The translations under genes and the position numbers were made by a program. The notes under the pieces are model-generated. The model was not told the DNA's origin. It worked only from the letters and a program-made list of their open reading frames with translations, and made no database searches. 64,000 nt of DNA from Arthrinium phaeospermum (Eukaryota > Ascomycota > Sordariomycetes > Amphisphaeriales > Apiosporaceae): NCBI GenBank assembly GCA_006503535.1, contig QYRS01000002.1:3968001-4032000 (forward strand), given 5' to 3'. Positions within the stretch are counted from its first letter, which is position 1. Each line of letters starts with the position of its first letter. Shown here piece after piece: positions 4,365 to 15,300 of this stretch.

Positions 4365-7017
4365 GATGTTGAAAATAGTGGAAACCACCACAAAAAGTAT
4401 TACAAAAAACGGGTAGGAAGAGAAAGTTAACAAGATGCCAAGAGGATTGACAAGCAGATCCGTCAGCAAACAGCAGGCGCAGCCGAGCTATATACAAAGC
4501 CAAGAAGCGCCTCTGCAAGTCGGGAGACTCGACTCTGGGCTTTCTGTCGTCGGGGCGGCCAGTCTCGCGCGAGAAACCCGGACCCCTGCGCAGATCAGGC
4601 AAACTAGTACCCTTGCCGTTTCATCGGTCCACCGGTTTGCATGCACGCAACCCCCGGCGCCCCAGCGACCTCCGACGATTTCTGTGTCAATTCCTGAGCT
4701 GAAGAGGCTTAATTGCTAAAATTGCTTTCGTGGTCCGGCCCTGCCTTGGCATGATGGTCTGATTAGGACGCCGAGGAGCCCGGCTACTCGACAAAAGCTT
4801 GTCGGACCCTCGACCAGGTAATATTCTGAAGTGCATACCGCAGTACCTAATTAGAAACACTTGGGCGAATGCACACCTATAGGACGCATGTTCTATATGA
4901 TTCGCCCGGAATGGCAAGTTTTGGCGGCGATCATCTTGGCATATGGTCAAATTAGGCGACGAACGCAAACATTTCAACCGGCCCATTCTCGTGTCAACCG
5001 GGCCATCAAACGCAGGAAATATGAGATGGCACGATTTCTTTTGAAACATTATCCTTGGCGTTTCAATACTATGCAGCGACATCTTGGTTGCCCAGACGGG
5101 TTGCTGGGTAAGTGGGTAGGTTCATTATTGGCGCGAATAGCAACGATATCTACCCTTTGTACGGAGTATCAGCAAGTCGACTGCGGCTAGTCGATACTGC
5201 TAATGAGGTGTATCGCTTCATTGTTTCTTCAAGAGGCTTTCGTCGACGACCGGCCTCCCCTGACCGCCGACCCCTATCCGCCCATAGCTGAGTCATGACA
5301 TTGCTGCCGCGGTGGTCCTATTGTGCCCACAGTGACTTTGCATCCCGCCGTATGATTGGGTTGAAACTTCTCATCTCAAGCCCTGCGGTTCGGTAAAAGG
5401 TCTCCGCTAGGGTTGCCTCGTAGATGGGGAATGGAGCAACCGTGCAGTGCCCCCGTCACAGCCCGGCCTGTCCTTAAGCAGAGGCCGAGGCCGAGTGACC
5501 GTCGTAGTTTCACGACTCGGTGCATCTCGTAATCTCATCCTCAACGCATGGACTGGCAAAGAGATTGTTCTAATAATACAGGAAGCTGGTAGCCGCAGCG
5601 CAGTATTATAATACCGGCAATTATTGGGCCACCTGGCTTGGGTTTTGGGTATTTCCGTAAATGCAGTTGATAGAATGCATCTTGCCTCGCCACCAAGTTC
5701 AACCCCGGCCACAAGACGATGTAAGAACTCTACTTTGGTTCTGATACCAAAGTACTTCACACGTCCTACTACGCTTCCGCTGTTGACTTTCAGTATCGCT
5801 ATTTTCTTCATGATTCTTTCAGGCACCTAGTTATTATATGAAAATACTCGATATGCGATATTTGGCCTCTTCGGTAAGGTTAGAGCATAGTCTCCGTCCT
5901 AGGATCAGTGAGCTCAACTGAGAATGTTGTAGTCATGGCTCGTTGTCTTCAAACTAGTAACCAGCCTTGTTAGAAGCCAAGTCAGAGTTTTAGGTGCATC
6001 AACGGTACAACAATGTCCAAGGTGTCTATAATACTACGGGAGTATGCGTTGACCCAAGGGACGGCAGATCACGTGCTGAGCTTCTGCCATTCGCCGGCCA
6101 GGACAGTGGCTCTCTATAATTAGCTACCGTGATAAATGGCGCTCCGCACGCAGTGCAGAACAAGTGCCGGTAACATTGACAGCCTTAACATATTTGACCT
6201 CGGATACCCAGGAACACACCGCTTCGATATAGCGCCTTTTGAAGCCAAGTCAAGCTCGAGATTGGCTGTGCTTGTTCGAACCCGGCAACCACCCCCTTGG
6301 AACCGACCCCCATGACCTCATCAACTTTGGCGCTAAAAGGAGCCATGGAATCTCTCCGGTGTTGCACAGCATATTTCTATTGGCTCAGCTGAAATGGGAT
6401 TGCAACGGACCCGACTCCCCAAGACAGGATACGACGAACCACAGTCCGAAGAAATGATGTTAGTAGGCGGGGTAGTCAGGCGTCATCCTTCGCCAATCAG
6501 AATGCCTCAGATATACAGGGAAAGTCCGCAACATCTCGGCTGCCTGCGGGTTCCGTTTAGTTCTTTTGGGACATGTCAGCATAAGACTTTGCTTAGCGTA
6601 ATGAACTATCACATACGACGAGTTGAGCCTGACCACCTTCTTACTTCCCAGGGACAGACCTCTCTGACGGTTCACTCAACTGTACCCCAGCTCGATAGTA
6701 CGGACCTTCCGGATTTCCGCTCTAATGCAACCCGCCCTCACGTAACCTGACTCCGGCTTGGCGTATAAGGGACCCGGGATGAAGCTGATGACCGCTGCTG
6801 CTGCCACGAAGCCAGGGATGCGCCATGGCCCAGAATGGAAGGTAGTCCAGGGCAAGCCGACAACAGGTACGTCTTAGTCAGCCCGACTCCCGGGACCCCT
6901 TAGAACGGACAGAGCAGGTTAATATAAAAGCAATTTGCATCTGCCTCGAAAGCGAGCCGAGAAGATGGGGTAGATGCAGCAAAGGCAGTTTATCCGTCCT
7001 ATGAGCAACTCTTCCGA
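4365..7017. other. Intergenic region, 2.65 kb
   Basis: No gene is supported. ORFs of 60-140 codons exist on both strands but none shows a family motif or plausible exon chain. The right part (about 6900-7017) is the promoter and leader of the tannase gene. No transposon termini or long repeats were recognised by eye. Confidence 0.5.
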
Positions 7018-8694
7018 ATGGCTCTCATCTCTTTACCCATATTATGGGCCGTCTCGATCTTGGTTCTGCGGCATGCGTCTGCTGCCAGATCGCAACCGAG
7101 CGGCCGTCAACAGCTTGGCGTCTGTGAAGCATCGGCTTTCACTGACGCGTTGCCCCAGGGGGCCTCGGTCGAACTGGCCTATCCGGTTCCGAGTGGAGGC
7201 TCGTTTGGGGAAGGCCCTTCCAATTTGGGATATCCACTCAATGCGACCAATCTACCTGAGCTGTGTGCCCTCATCATACGGGTGTCCTCAGGCACCTCGA
7301 CCTACAGGTTCGGCATGTATCTCCCCACAACGAACAATTGGAACTCGCGGTTCTTGGCGACGGGAAACGGCGGCTTCCTGGGGGGTATCGACTGGGTCGA
7401 CATGGCCCCCGGTCCCCACTACGGCTTTGCCACGCTGTCGACCGACACCGGCCACAACTCGGCGTCGGACCAAAGCTGGGCCTATGAGAATGCAGAGGCG
7501 CAGAAGGACTGGGGTTACCGCGCCATGCACGGCTCGGTCGAGCTGGGAAAGCGTCTTACTGCGGCCTACTACGGCCGAGACATTGCCTACTCGTACTACT
7601 CTGGCTGCTCGACGGGAGGCAGACAGGGCCTAAAAGAGATCCAGATCAGCCCCGAGAGCTTCAACGGGGTCCTGGTGGGAGCGCCGGCCTGGCCCACCAC
7701 GGGCCTCATGAGCTGGCTGACGGCCTTGGGCACTTGGAACCTCCCCGCCAGCGACCCCAAGGCCTTCACCACCACCAGCCAGTACCAGTTGCTCGCCTCC
7801 ACCGTCATGTCCCAATGCGACAAGGCCGACGGTCTGGCGGACAACATAGTCAGTAACCCCGAAGCCTGCAAACCGGACCTCAGCGCGGTGCAGTGCGGCC
7901 AGCGCGGCGTCGACGCCCGCAACTGCCTCACGCAACAACAAATCCAGACTGCCCAGAAGGTCTGGGACGACTACCACACGTCCCGGGGCGACCTCATCTA
8001 CCACGGCCTCGAGCTCAGCGGCGAGAACCAGTGGGACGTCTACACGCTGTACGGCAACCCGGCCAACTTCGACACCCAGTGGGAAAGGTACTGGCTGTAC
8101 AGCGACAAGTCCTGGACCTGGCGGCAGTACAGCGAGAACGTCTTCTACGACTCGGTCCGGGCGAACCCGGGCAACGCCACCGCCGACGCCTTCGACATCA
8201 GCGCGTTCCGGCGCGCGGGCGGGAAGCTGATCCTCTACCAGGGGCTGGCTGACGGGTTGATCTCGGCGCGCTCTTCGCTGCATTACTATAACGAGACGGT
8301 CAAGGCCGTGGGGGGAGAGGGTAGCGTGGACGATTTCTTCCGCTTCTTCCGCGTCCCCGGGATGCAGCACTGCCTCGGCACGCCGGCCGCGGTAAAGGCG
8401 CCCTGGTACATTGCCTCGTGGGGCCAGGCGGCCAAGCTGCCGGGCACCGTGGCCGGCGGCTATTCCGTGCCCGGGTTCCGGGATCCGGAGCACGACGCTT
8501 TGCTGGCGCTGATGCGGTGGACGGAGAATGGGACGGCGGTCGACTCGATCATCGCGACGGTCTGGGACGATGTTTCGGGGGGCGATCAGGAGCTCACGGT
8601 TTACCGGCAGCGGCCTGTTTGTCCTTACCCGAAGAAGGCGACGTACGACGGGGAGGGGGATCCGGACTTGGCTTCGAGCTGGGCTTGTGCATGA
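7018..8694 (+). CDS. Tannase/feruloyl esterase family, secreted
   Basis: Intronless gene of 558 aa. A signal peptide is evident (MALISLPILWAVSILVLRHASA). The family's CS-D-HC catalytic motif is complete: Cys197-Ser198 in GCSTGGRQG, Asp412 in YQGLADGLIS, and His451-Cys452 in VPGMQHC. The two cysteines are adjacent to the catalytic Ser and His, as in known tannases and feruloyl esterases, where they form a disulfide. Family members hydrolyse galloyl or feruloyl esters of tannins and plant cell-wall polysaccharides outside the cell. Length is typical (520-580 aa). Tannase cannot be separated from feruloyl esterase by sequence reading alone. The ATG at 7018 directly precedes the signal peptide. 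Confidence 0.92.
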   Translation: MALISLPILWAVSILVLRHASAARSQPSGRQQLGVCEASAFTDALPQGASVELAYPVPSGGSFGEGPSNLGYPLNATNLPELCALIIRVSSGTSTYRFGMYLPTTNNWNSRFLATGNGGFLGGIDWVDMAPGPHYGFATLSTDTGHNSASDQSWAYENAEAQKDWGYRAMHGSVELGKRLTAAYYGRDIAYSYYSGCSTGGRQGLKEIQISPESFNGVLVGAPAWPTTGLMSWLTALGTWNLPASDPKAFTTTSQYQLLASTVMSQCDKADGLADNIVSNPEACKPDLSAVQCGQRGVDARNCLTQQQIQTAQKVWDDYHTSRGDLIYHGLELSGENQWDVYTLYGNPANFDTQWERYWLYSDKSWTWRQYSENVFYDSVRANPGNATADAFDISAFRRAGGKLILYQGLADGLISARSSLHYYNETVKAVGGEGSVDDFFRFFRVPGMQHCLGTPAAVKAPWYIASWGQAAKLPGTVAGGYSVPGFRDPEHDALLALMRWTENGTAVDSIIATVWDDVSGGDQELTVYRQRPVCPYPKKATYDGEGDPDLASSWACA

Positions 8695-9554: not shown

Positions 9555-11785
9555 ATGGCTCGCACCAAGCAGACAGCACGTAGAGGTAGGTGCTCATCCG
9601 TGGCACCGTTTGGCTTGCCCCGATATGAGTCCACGGATACTTTATACACGTTTAGAGTCGACTAACTGGAACTAAAGCCGCGAAATATGACTATGAGGAC
9701 GAAGAGAGTGAGAACTCTCAGGAGGAATCCGGCTCCGAGTCCGGATCCGAGTCCGAAGAGAACAAGAAGGCAAAGGAAGACAAGATCCAGAAAGAACATG
9801 CCCAGGTCCTAGAAGGCGTCGAGGTCATGGCGCTCGCCAAGAACAGCAGTGGCGCCTCCGAGGCATCCAAGCTCGGTTACGCCTCCAAGCTGGTCAGTAA
9901 CTGGTACCATCACAAGTGCGCTTACGATTCGTGCCAGCTCCGATGGAGCGAGTTCGCCGTCGTGGACGAGGAGGAGGCCGACCTCCAGAAGCGGGCCTTG
10001 CAGGTTCCCATCGTCCACCGCCACGAGTACAAGAACAAGCACTGGGTCACGTCCAATATCACCGTCCAGGACAAAGCCATGCGCCAGGTTCTCGACAAGG
10101 TCCTCCACAAGTACCAAGACCTCGACCTCGAAGTCATCAACTACACCTTTGAGCCCCCCTTCATGCCGCTGGTCCACCGATGGGATGTCCTGAAGACGTA
10201 CCACGCCGCGGCCGAAGCCGGAACCCTGAAGAATGCGGCGGCGGCCCTGCTCGCGTTCCTGACGCCTGTCATTGCGTCCTCGGTCCTCTCTCATGCCCTC
10301 ACTAGGAAGACGGGAAAGGTGAACTTTGAGAACATTTGGCAGATATTCCCTCCTAACGAGCTCGTCATCACCAAGTTCTTCGGCGTCGACACCATCTGCC
10401 GCGTCGTCCGATACAGATATCGCCCTGAGACCCGGACATGCCCGGCCGCCTGGACTATCGACATCGAGTACGTTGACTGGAACGGCGAGGCCAGCGGATT
10501 CACCACCACCAGCGTCAACATGTGTGAGTTTGACGGTTTCCGGCGGGTCCAGGCCCTGCCCGTCTTCCCCATCTCCTTCCTCGGCGATGTCGAGAAGACC
10601 AAAGCCACCTTCATCGAACGGGGACGCAAGTTTGAGAGCCTTCGCGGCTACAAGTTCATGCTTTGCAACGGCACCAAGATTCTCCTGGAGACGGAGAAGC
10701 CGGAGCAGCGGCCCGTTGCTGGCAAGGTGTGTGTGGACGCCTACGCGTACTACCGAAGCTGCAACATTGTGAAACCCAAGCTTCGACCTCTGTCCGGCGA
10801 AGAGGCTTCTGATGCTAAGACCGAAGCGGCTGATCCGGATCTTTCTGACACGCCCTACGAGATGGATTTCTCTGCAGCTCCGGTGGAGACTTCTACAGCC
10901 GCCAAGGGCCCGGCTGAGCGCACTGAAGATCTCCAGCCTCTGACCGACGAGCAGTGTCTCCTGTCTACGCCGTGGATGAAGGGCTTCGATCTCAAGTCCA
11001 AGGAGTGGTGCGAGCTGCGGGTCGACGAACTCAAGGACATGACCTGGAACGACGAGGCCTTTGAGAAGCTGGTCCTGCCCGAGGGCGAAAAGGACCTCGC
11101 CTGGGCCTTCGTCGAGAACAAGTCCCTCTCCAAGACGGACTTTGACGACTTCATCCCCGACAAGGGCCGCGGCCTCATCATCCTCATGTTCGGCCCGCCC
11201 GGCGTGGGCAAGACCTTCACCGCCGAAGCCGTGGCCGAGCGCTCGCGCGTGCCGCTGTACCTGATGAGCGCGGGCGACCTCGGCACGCAGCCGGCCGACG
11301 TCGAGAAGACGCTCGAGCGCGCCCTGGAGCTGTGCCGCATGTGGAACGCCATGCTCCTGCTGGACGAGGCCGACGTGTTCCTCGGCGCGCGCACCAACGA
11401 GAGCCTGGCGCGCAACGAGCTCGTCTCCATCTTCCTCACCAAGCTCGAGTACTACCAGGGCACCCTCTTCCTGACCACGAACCGCATCTCGAGCATCGAC
11501 CACGCCTTCCAGTCGCGCGTCGACCTGTTCCTGCCCTACCACGACCTGACCAACGCGGCGCGCCGGCAGGTGTGGGAGAACTTCATCGACCGCGCCGGGC
11601 GGGCCAAGTTCGACGTCGACGAGGCCTCGCTCGAGAAGCTGTCCCAGCTCAACCTCAATGGAAGGGAGATCAAGAACCTCATCAAGAGCGCGCAGCTGCT
11701 CAGCCTCAAGAGTGGCGGGAAGGTACCCATGGACCGGCTTTACATGCTGGCAGACAAGCGGGTGCAGGCGCTTAGCTTACTTTAA
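9555..11785 (+). CDS. AAA+ ATPase with a histone H3-like N-terminus
   Basis: Two exons (9555..9585 and 9678..11785) give about 712 aa. The 92-bp intron has donor GTAGGT, branch CTAAC and acceptor AAAG, and splicing is exactly in frame. Exon 1 reads MARTKQTARR, so after Met removal residues 1-8 equal histone H3 residues 1-8 (ARTKQTAR). Exon 2 continues AAKYDYEDEE and an acidic Ser/Glu-rich stretch of about 30 residues. A long N-terminal region resembles the DUF7025-type part of fungal AAA proteins. A single AAA+ module follows: Walker A GPPGVGKT at about 516-523, Walker B LLLDEAD at about 570-576, sensor TTNR, and VDLFLPYHD. AAA+ proteins remodel protein complexes using ATP; the target is unknown. 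The internal ATG at 9827 would remove tail and acidic region, but the exon 1 start has a better context. Confidence 0.86.
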
Positions 11786-12324: not shown

Positions 12325-15300
12325 CTACCTAGACCAAAACATAATCGACTCATCATAGTCTTCCTCTGTTGCCGAAGCCCCGTTATTTCTGCGAGTGATG
12401 GCGCATCGCAGCTCCTCTGCTTTCGTTCTCCTGTCCTGGGCTTCTTCCATCATGCCCCTCTTCGCTGCGATCTCACTGAGCTTGAACCATGCCCTGGCTT
12501 CCTCGTTCCTGAATGTGCTACCATCTTGATAGATCTGAAGCGCCTCTTGGAGGGTGTCTCTGCGACTTATGTATCAATGAATAGGCCTCTTTCGGTTGGG
12601 TAATAGACTTACTCTGCTGGTTCCAGCTGGTTCATGCGGCATTGGTGCCATGCAACCTTGTAACAGGCGTCGGCGTATCTGTGGTGGCTTTTGCCCACCG
12701 TTTCGGCCAGCATTTCTGACGATGAAAGATGCGTTTGATAGGCCTCTTCGAATCTTTTCTGCTGGATCTGCAGGTTGCCATAGGCCAGATATACAATACC
12801 AGTCCTAGAAGCGTGAGTAGTCCGCCCGTCAGAGCCGTTTCCCATTCCACACACCCGTCTGCCTAATAGGTCAAAGGGCAAAATTTGCTTACCGGAAAGT
12901 TGTGCAATCCCGCTCCCCGTGCTCCTCGGCTCTCTTTGTGATCAGTTCCGACAGTAGGGTTTCGGCTTCTTGAAGCTTCCCTTGGAACATCAAGCACATG
13001 CCGAGGTGTGGCACGTATATCGAAGGGTCGCCCGGGCATGCTTCCCAGATTTTGAGGCATTGGCGAAAGGACACCTCGGCCTCGTCGTACCTCTTGAGCG
13101 ACATCCTTCCCACCCCGATTCCCCCCTCGCTCAGAGCCTCTCGGATGTCGGGACTGGACAGAAGGCCCAAGTCAATAGCCTGTCGAATCAAGTCATGTTG
13201 CTTCGAGAAGGCGTCGAAACATGGTTCGTTGCATTCACTCGCAATGGACCCATACACGCCGTGGATGTCCGCCAGAACCACCTGGCAGTTGTTTGGGTTC
13301 TTCTCGCAGCAGAGCTCGGCAGTTGAGAGTAGTAGCAGAGCAGACGAGAAATTCCCCCGCTCGTAGAAGTACCTACCACAATCGGTCAGTGTTGTCCCAT
13401 TGCTATCATGACGGCTGTGATCGCGACTGACCAAGCACAGTTATAGAGCAACTCGGTAAATTTGACAGAAGCATGTAAGTGAATGCCATCCTGTGCCTTG
13501 AAAGAGGCACCCCAGCGATCTGCTAGGCGGACCACATGGCTTGAGAGACGCTCTTGAGTTGGCCATAAGCTCCTGTCGTGGCGACTATGGCGTGGTGGTA
13601 CCCGCCACTGTTTGTTGATCAGTGTAAAGGCAGCATCGAAGGCAGCTTGTCTGGACTCTGGGGTCATGATGTAGTGACAATAGTCTTGCATCATCCTGTG
13701 TATCAAGATAGTCTTGATGTCCGGGTTTCTGTCAATGGCGTTATTCTCGCAGAGAAACGATCGGTTGACCTCGAATCGATGGCTGTCGACAATTTGCCGA
13801 AGCACATGATGCTGGCTTCCCAAAGAGCCGTCCGACAGGTCTTGTTCGCTCACTCCATCTGGGTCCAAGAAAGAAAGAAGCTCTAGTAATTTCCAGGCAT
13901 CCTCGTGGCCTTCGCTATATTTGATGCCGTCTACTGCGCTCCGGAAAGAGCTGGTTAGGCTGTCCTCGTAAAAGGAGTGGGGCGCCGCGATTGGTTTTGC
14001 TTCTTCGAAGAGTCGGGTGTTTGGATAGAGATCGATGTACTCTTTGAAGTCGATCTTCTTGACAGAAATCATGGATGCAACTGTGGTGAGAGAGAATGGA
14101 TGCCCTGCGACCTTTCCGTAGATCTGCTCTGCGTATTTTCGGTTTTGACGGCTCTCTTGGATTTTGGATATTCGGAAGAGGATATCAACCGACTCGTTGG
14201 CCTCTAACCCAGAGATGTACACAACCTCACCACCGGAGACTTGGAACGGAGGTCCCAACGCCGTATCCTTCCTGGATGTTACTAATATCGAGCCTCTGTT
14301 TCCAGAAGGCCAAAAGTCAGCCAGGCTCCAATCAGGTTGCGGGCTCGATGACTGCCTTGAGATTTGCTCCGGCAGCTCTACGTTGTCGAATATCAGTAAC
14401 CACTGCTTGTCTGCCTATGTGTTAGATCACTTTACACAGGTGTACATCTAGTTTGTAGCTTGTTGTGCCAAGAGCCCTTCACTTACCTGTGTCCTGGAGA
14501 TACCTCTTGACTCTTTCCCTACTCGCTGTCTGGTTGCTGGCCGTAGATGCAGGAGCGTGAGCCTTTAATCCAAGCTCATCGTCAAATTTGACGAAGCTTG
14601 TCACCAACTTGGCATTGGTCTCAGCCTGCGCTACCAGAACAATATCGTATCTTCCAGCTTTGATGGACTCAAAGGCGTACTCCAGGGCTATTTGGGTTTT
14701 GCCCATTCCGGGTATGCCGACCAAAGCCAATTTAGATTGATGTCCTGGGACTTTGCTGGGCTCAAGCGCCTTTCTCACTCTGGAGAGCGTATCCTCACGG
14801 CCTGTGAAGCCGGGGTTGCGCTGGTAAGGGGCGACATAATAACAGGGTAATTTAGCATCCCCCATGTGTGTCGTCAGCTGTGAGCGAATGGCTGGGGGAC
14901 GACTAGAGGCTTTATGACGGGCGGGGACTCTCAGGGACGTTTTCGGACTCATAGCCACCTTTCGAGAATAAACCAACTCGACTTTTCCAACCACTGCATT
15001 AGCCGGCATGTATCATCGCATGAGTCAAGTTGAAAATAGTAACTTACCAGGGATGGGCGCGTGAGCGGGCACTTGTATATTCTGGATCACAGATTTGATG
15101 TTCGTAATGAGCGTCATACTCGATCCACCCAAGCCAGACATATACTCGTGGCTATAGGGGAGCTCAGTTGTTGCATGCCGAGGCCTCGTTAAGGACCCCA
15201 GATCCTCCGAGATTACCTTCAACATTGTAGAAACGTTAAATATTGATCAACATGTATCAGAAAGGCGGTACGACGGTACTTACAAAGTGTTTCACTTTCT

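Follow-up and report, generated by a model that had tools for sequence, protein, structure and literature searches.

Why should a fungal ATPase begin with the tail of histone H3? The question arises from a stretch of 64,000 nucleotides of the Arthrinium phaeospermum genome (contig QYRS01000002.1 of assembly GCA_006503535.1, positions 3,968,001 to 4,032,000 of the forward strand), hereafter the window, in whose numbering the coordinates of the gene and its neighbours are given. A sequence-only reading of the window had proposed that a short first exon encoding MARTKQTARR is spliced in frame, through a GTAGGT donor and a CTAAC branch-like site, to an AAA+ ATPase, and our analysis bears out this gene structure. 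Exon 1 (9555..9585, + strand) comprises 31 bases (ATG GCT CGC ACC AAG CAG ACA GCA CGT AGA G, the final G opening codon 11) and encodes Met, H3 residues 1-8 (ARTKQTAR) and Arg. Intron 1 (9586..9677, +; 92 bases) carries the GTAGGT donor, the CTAAC site and an AAAG acceptor, and exon 2 (9678..11785, +, stop codon included) encodes the remainder of the ATPase. Among five AG acceptors tried, only the one at 9677 leaves a frame without an internal stop; the product has 712 residues and begins MARTKQTARRAAKYDYEDEESENSQEESGSE, its N-terminal tail peptide being ARTKQTARRAAKYDYE. The sequence-only reading had also named an unspliced exon 1 and a start at 9827 as circumstances that would undo it, and neither fits the locus: with intron 1 retained the frame ends after 36 residues, and the ATG at 9827, the earliest in frame in exon 2, lies downstream of an HAQVLEGVEV block common to relatives. 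Translation is needed to start upstream of exon 2 because a start at 9827 would remove this conserved protein. The same kind of junction product occurs in Apiospora arundinis (P0002), in which MARTKQTARR is followed by TTKYDYEEE, and in a further relative (P0121, on a contig of 2409 bases) MARTKQTARR runs straight into the linker within one protein. As a gene prediction, a two-exon gene at 9555-11785 (+) with an H3-tail start spliced in frame is thus confirmed.

To place this start among relatives, we gathered 143 distinct proteins by three protein searches (the best 120 of 382 matches, all 7, and the best 120 of 227), the third of which used a profile built from ten relatives. Gene models of the relatives were taken as annotated, and only proteins were compared. 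A first tree (FastTree) of 121 relatives and the window's protein separated a clade of 48 rows (support 88, with 95 for 45 of its rows) from 74 others, and 22 rows new to the third search were added later. The start MARTKQTAR is found in 7 of the 48 clade rows and in none of the 74 other tree rows or the 22 late rows. With progressively looser patterns, the clade count rises to 10 for MARTK, 13 for MAR[TS] and 19 for M[APG]R, and the count remains zero in both of the other sets; for M[APG]R the contrast of 48 versus 74 rows gives a Fisher value of 1.4e-9, computed on rows that are not independent and with ancestry ignored. The seven exact carriers are the window, Apiospora arundinis, Xylariales sp. 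AK1849, Xylariales sp. PMI_506, Microdochium trichocladiopsis, Bisporella sp. (a leotiomycete) and P0121, a metagenomic JGI relative near Stachybotrys. Near variants are MARTKQIARK in Oculimacula, MARTKATAR in Thelonectria and MPRAKATAR in Dactylonectria, and further ones are MARSRQTAS (Stachybotrys), MARTRNEPR (Seiridium) and MARTKNDH (Thozetella). One row among the 74 others, P0028, starts MMARTSRR and as written matches none of the patterns. Six of the late rows (P0134-P0137, P0139 and P0143), fragments that lack the N-terminal end and match P0007 at 74-82% identity, may belong to the clade. As a separate observation, P0121 departs from the family frame after EKPEQRPV (past residue ~375), where an unspliced intron or a frame error is probable.

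Chance is a poor explanation for such a start, as had been judged from the eight identical residues alone. With residue frequencies of the family, some 1.6e-6 occurrences of ARTKQTAR immediately behind Met would be expected in 12,000 proteins (an assumed number), and the start is also kept in diverged relatives. When the 48.4 Mb genome was searched for all codon forms of MARTKQTA, there were three matches, and none for the reversed control; the three are the window's ATPase gene, the H3 gene and a frame on contig 4 (2491304-2491326, -) reading MARTKQTAEK and then a stop. No convincing gene follows the last of these by eye, and we rejected it as a third tail gene in favour of chance or a relic. 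The shorter pattern MARTKQ occurs at six places, the above three included, again with none for the reversed control; of the others, one on contig 5 starts a frame MARTKQVKP..., one on contig 7 (MARTKQMVW...) lies within the span of a family match in a different frame, and one on contig 13 has Ser at position 3, which the pattern also permits through AGY. The ATPase family itself is greatly expanded in this genome, with 73 exon-level matches across many contigs. Of these, the window's gene alone has the full MARTKQTA codon pattern.

Is the tail an old feature of the clade, and has it been kept? A second tree of 45 rows, built without the N-terminal part, places exact carriers in both main halves of the clade (supports 89 and 99). 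Ancestral residues were estimated by parsimony (bottom-up sets, ungapped positions) at the node that unites the window with Microdochium and covers 29 rows. Doubtful rows were handled in four ways; the first of these treatments scored seven rows and 12 of 13 outgroup rows as unknown and removed the initial Met of P0028. The ancestor reads A-R-T-K-Q-T-A-R under all four treatments. Its residues 9-11 are A/K/R/S, S and S/T in the first treatment and, with fewer or no unknown rows, A/K/R/S or K, then R/S/T/V, then S/T; they are compatible with the K-S-T of H3 (ARTKQTARKST) without being fixed, and the Bisporella protein starts MARTKQTARKST. On these reconstructions the octapeptide was probably present in the ancestor, perhaps as part of a stretch of eleven H3 residues, and the tail would have been eroded repeatedly thereafter. 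The proposal that Arg stands in place of Lys9 so as to avoid K9-type marks is not supported by the relatives, for Lys occupies that site in Bisporella, Oculimacula and Microdochium.

Across the 13 MAR[TS] rows, pairwise identity is 0.47-0.59 at positions 5-9 (H3 residues 4-8, on which the rows had not been chosen), 0.23 at position 10 and 0.04-0.35 at positions 11-40 in ungapped comparison; in the gapped alignment the mean pairwise identity is 32% in the linker and 74.5% in the body. Among the six lineages of exact carriers, whose octapeptide is identical because the set was so chosen, the linker (25-43 aligned residues per pair) averages about 33% identity and the body about 71%; for pairs with P0121 the body comparison covers 280 residues only, counted from where the folded part begins. 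Eight residues retained at linker rates would have a probability of 0.33^8 = 1.5e-4 for one pair. On this comparison the H3-tail start is kept in relatives above the surrounding disordered sequence in part of the clade, and the drop in conservation after H3 residue 8 would fit readers of the extreme N-terminus better than readers of Lys9.

How the ATPase acquired the tail is a separate matter. Of the first 27 bases of exon 1, 24 equal those of the H3 gene and the three differences fall at third positions, while the bases upstream of the ATG are unlike those of the H3 gene by eye; on these grounds a recent copying from H3 is not favoured. In the genome's own H3 gene (contig 3, from 88711) no intron lies behind the tail, the first one coming after ...KLPFQRL, and exon shuffling through that intron was therefore rejected for this genome. 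The tail could have been captured in a relative whose H3 gene is built differently, and the origins that remain are convergence and an ancient capture by an ancestor.

The protein that bears the tail is a DUF7025-AAA fungal ATPase. Both Pfam matches score well above their curated cut-offs, with 82.7 against 27 bits for DUF7025 (PF22942; 10301..10579, +) and 66.8 against 21.2 bits for the AAA core (PF00004; 11180..11527, +), which contains the Walker A motif GPPGVGKT and the Walker B motif LLLDEAD. Behind the tail lies an acidic Ser/Glu-rich linker (9689..9763, +) that is poorly conserved and whose counterpart in P0002 is modelled at low confidence; the tail of P0002 is itself modelled as disordered, with a mean predicted local distance difference test score (pLDDT) of 32 over its first ten residues. 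The folded N-terminal domain (9857..10804, +) is modelled by AlphaFold2 with a mean pLDDT of 91, and DUF7025 within it is predicted to be a small beta-barrel. No histone domain occurs among the Pfam matches in exon 2, and the ATPase is not histone H3 or an H3 variant. The 13 Pfam rows of exon 2 show a single AAA stretch and no bromodomain, which sets it apart from the ATAD2/Yta7 chaperones, and no zinc finger, which sets it apart from SNAG-domain proteins. As to its neighbourhood, what we read as an NLR-like gene lies at 12889-15012 (-), where a weak AAA_16 match below cut-off, a DUF7779 match and TPR matches fall in different open frames, and upstream on the + strand lie a tannase/feruloyl esterase gene (6928-8691) and an FMO-like monooxygenase gene (1190-2860).

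We propose, with a probability of roughly 0.55, that the start is a genuine mimic of the H3 tail, ancestral in the clade and selectively kept, which docks a reader or modifier of the H3 tail onto the ATPase. Removal of Met would expose a free Ala1-Arg2-Thr3-Lys4...Arg8 end, extended on the disordered acidic linker. This end may then dock on a nuclear protein that grips the first eight residues of H3, such as an LSD1-type demethylase, a methyltransferase of the Set1/COMPASS type or a PHD/Tudor reader. Docking would bring the ATPase to chromatin or to the complex of its partner, where it would presumably act as an unfoldase, and methylation of Lys4 could serve as a switch. Selection for such docking could account for the retention of the tail in several lineages. 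Candidate partners are encoded in the genome: one N-SET match, 14 PHD matches counted exon by exon, and four SWIRM matches, one of which is in frame with an amine-oxidase domain and LSD1-like. The N-SET, SWIRM plus amine-oxidase and PHD genes are candidates by their existence, which says nothing of binding.

Several observations weigh against this proposal. More than half of the clade rows (29 of 48) do not start with M[APG]R. Five of these 29 lack a Met, and six start inside or just ahead of the conserved block; we sorted the 29 by judgement, not by computation, into 12 that are truncated or mis-started and 17 that may be real differences or losses or else wrong models. The most telling possible loss is in Apiospora hydei (P0004), because it belongs to the same genus as the window's Apiospora lineage: its annotated start, MPREARRRPKK, fits the loose M[APG]R pattern and is not the tail. 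The tail would accordingly seem dispensable in places, because many clade members and Apiospora hydei are annotated without it. The 48-row clade is also not firmly rooted: three of its rows (P0010, P0020 and P0024) fall weakly outside the 29-row group in the 45-row tree, in which the branch below that group has a support of 32. Finally, the first five residues also occur where no link to chromatin is evident, in a frame on contig 5 (2354401) that starts MARTKQVKPIERQ (MARTKQVKP...) and looks like a membrane transporter; those residues alone prove nothing. The sequence-only reading had conceded that close relatives lacking the start would speak against it, and Apiospora hydei does so in part. 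The nearest listed relative, P0001, does not. It is 96% identical and is annotated to start MQLTEIPAHKRHDYEDDE, and its first residues align with the end of the window's intron in the frame of exon 2 (SRLTGTKAAKYDYEDEE, with LT over the CTAAC site); this protein comparison suggests that the annotated start was translated from the last bases of the intron, and we rejected P0001 as a case of tail loss.

Among the other explanations, the one that survives best, unlikely as we consider it, is a general basic N-terminal signal for nuclear or nucleolar targeting, or for contact with nucleic acid or an acidic patch, in which the detailed likeness to H3 is a relic or a coincidence. Members without the exact tail do keep a short basic start (MPREARRRPKK, MVNHKRRRR, MARTSRI), and protein position 10 is commonly K or R in the MAR[TS] rows. 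Charge, however, leaves the retention of Gln5, Thr6 and Ala7 in six diverged lineages unexplained, and likewise the frequent A, P or G followed by Arg at the very start. A bolder form of the mimicry proposal is one we put forward only speculatively: an ancestral fungal AAA+ ATPase would have captured the tail and retained it as a functional, K4-methylatable copy, by which the H3K4 system of writers, erasers and readers runs the motor. A signal of the histone code would thereby switch an unfoldase without a histone, and the Tudor-like DUF7025 barrel of the ATPase itself might be what reads the tail, in cis.

Somewhat less probable still is a switch wholly in cis, in which the Tudor- or chromo-like DUF7025 barrel binds its own tail or that of a neighbouring subunit and the ring stays inactive until real H3 tails, or methylation of the tail, displace it. 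DUF7025 is modelled as a small beta-barrel, and 18 of its 50 listed structural matches bear reader-type titles (Tudor, chromo, SAWADEE, 53BP1, JMJD2A/KDM4A, UHRF1 or Sgf29), Sgf29 with dimethylated H3K4 being among them. The resemblance is weak: a Foldseek search with the DUF7025 model gave no match below E 0.001, and a second structural comparison gave middling Z scores. There are precedents for the idea: a sequence mimicking H3 autoinhibits Swi6 (PMC7192584), and Yta7, another AAA+ protein with an acidic disordered N-region, draws the H3 tail into its pore (PMC9898759).

That the gene model is an accident, with exon 1 untranslated and the resemblance meaningless, we regard as very improbable: several relatives are indeed annotated from inside exon 2, but proteins of other genomes share the start, P0121 has it in one uninterrupted protein, and a protein made from exon 2 by itself would lack the conserved block. 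Hardly to be entertained is a decoy, with an expanded and possibly immune-like family using the tail to lure invading factors that target H3 tails, a reading that the 73 family matches on many contigs and the adjoining NLR-like gene with its DUF7779 and TPR matches might suggest, but for which immune action of the family is without evidence in this analysis and to which the well-conserved body of the tail-bearing form (74.5%) is ill suited.

Mimicry of H3 as a principle is already known, and to our knowledge the known mimics are mostly shorter or degenerate. Chen et al. (2021) reportedly treated H3 N-terminal mimics in non-histone proteins; beside these, judged by that title, the ATPase has all eight first residues of H3, is a fungal AAA+ ATPase and carries a trait traced across a clade. 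The SNAG domain, also an N-terminal mimic of H3, is found on zinc-finger transcription factors and is not known to reproduce the H3 sequence exactly, and the MPR- start of some clade members resembles the SNAG start. ATAD2/Abo1, kin of Yta7, are AAA+ histone chaperones. The SNAG domain of SNAIL mimics H3 and binds LSD1 (PMC8175190), and influenza NS1 carries a viral H3 mimic, ARSK (PMC10208167). The NS1 motif is likewise a short H3-like motif that recruits chromatin factors; it is viral and C-terminal, whereas the tail of the ATPase is cellular, at the true N-terminus and identical in eight of eight residues. Yta7 and the window's ATPase are both AAA+ ATPases with a disordered acidic N-region and a connection to H3-tail biology, but Yta7 uses its bromodomain and two AAA modules to bind H3 tails and thread them, whereas the window's ATPase wears the tail and has one AAA match. 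Among the titles and abstracts listed from the open-access literature we found no description of an AAA+ ATPase bearing the H3 N-terminus, and DUF7025 had no match in that literature.

In this family of cellular enzymes, the full first eight residues of H3 are kept at the true start in lineages between which the adjacent sequence is about one third identical. The natural variants (MARTKQTAR, MARTKQIAR, MARTKATAR, MARTRNEPR and MPRAKATAR) form a ready series for determining which H3 residues the readers need. A practical consequence is that antibodies and readers directed at the H3 N-terminus could also recognise the ATPase, which would make it a confounder. If the tail is read or methylated, H3K4 signalling would extend to a motor protein in fungi.
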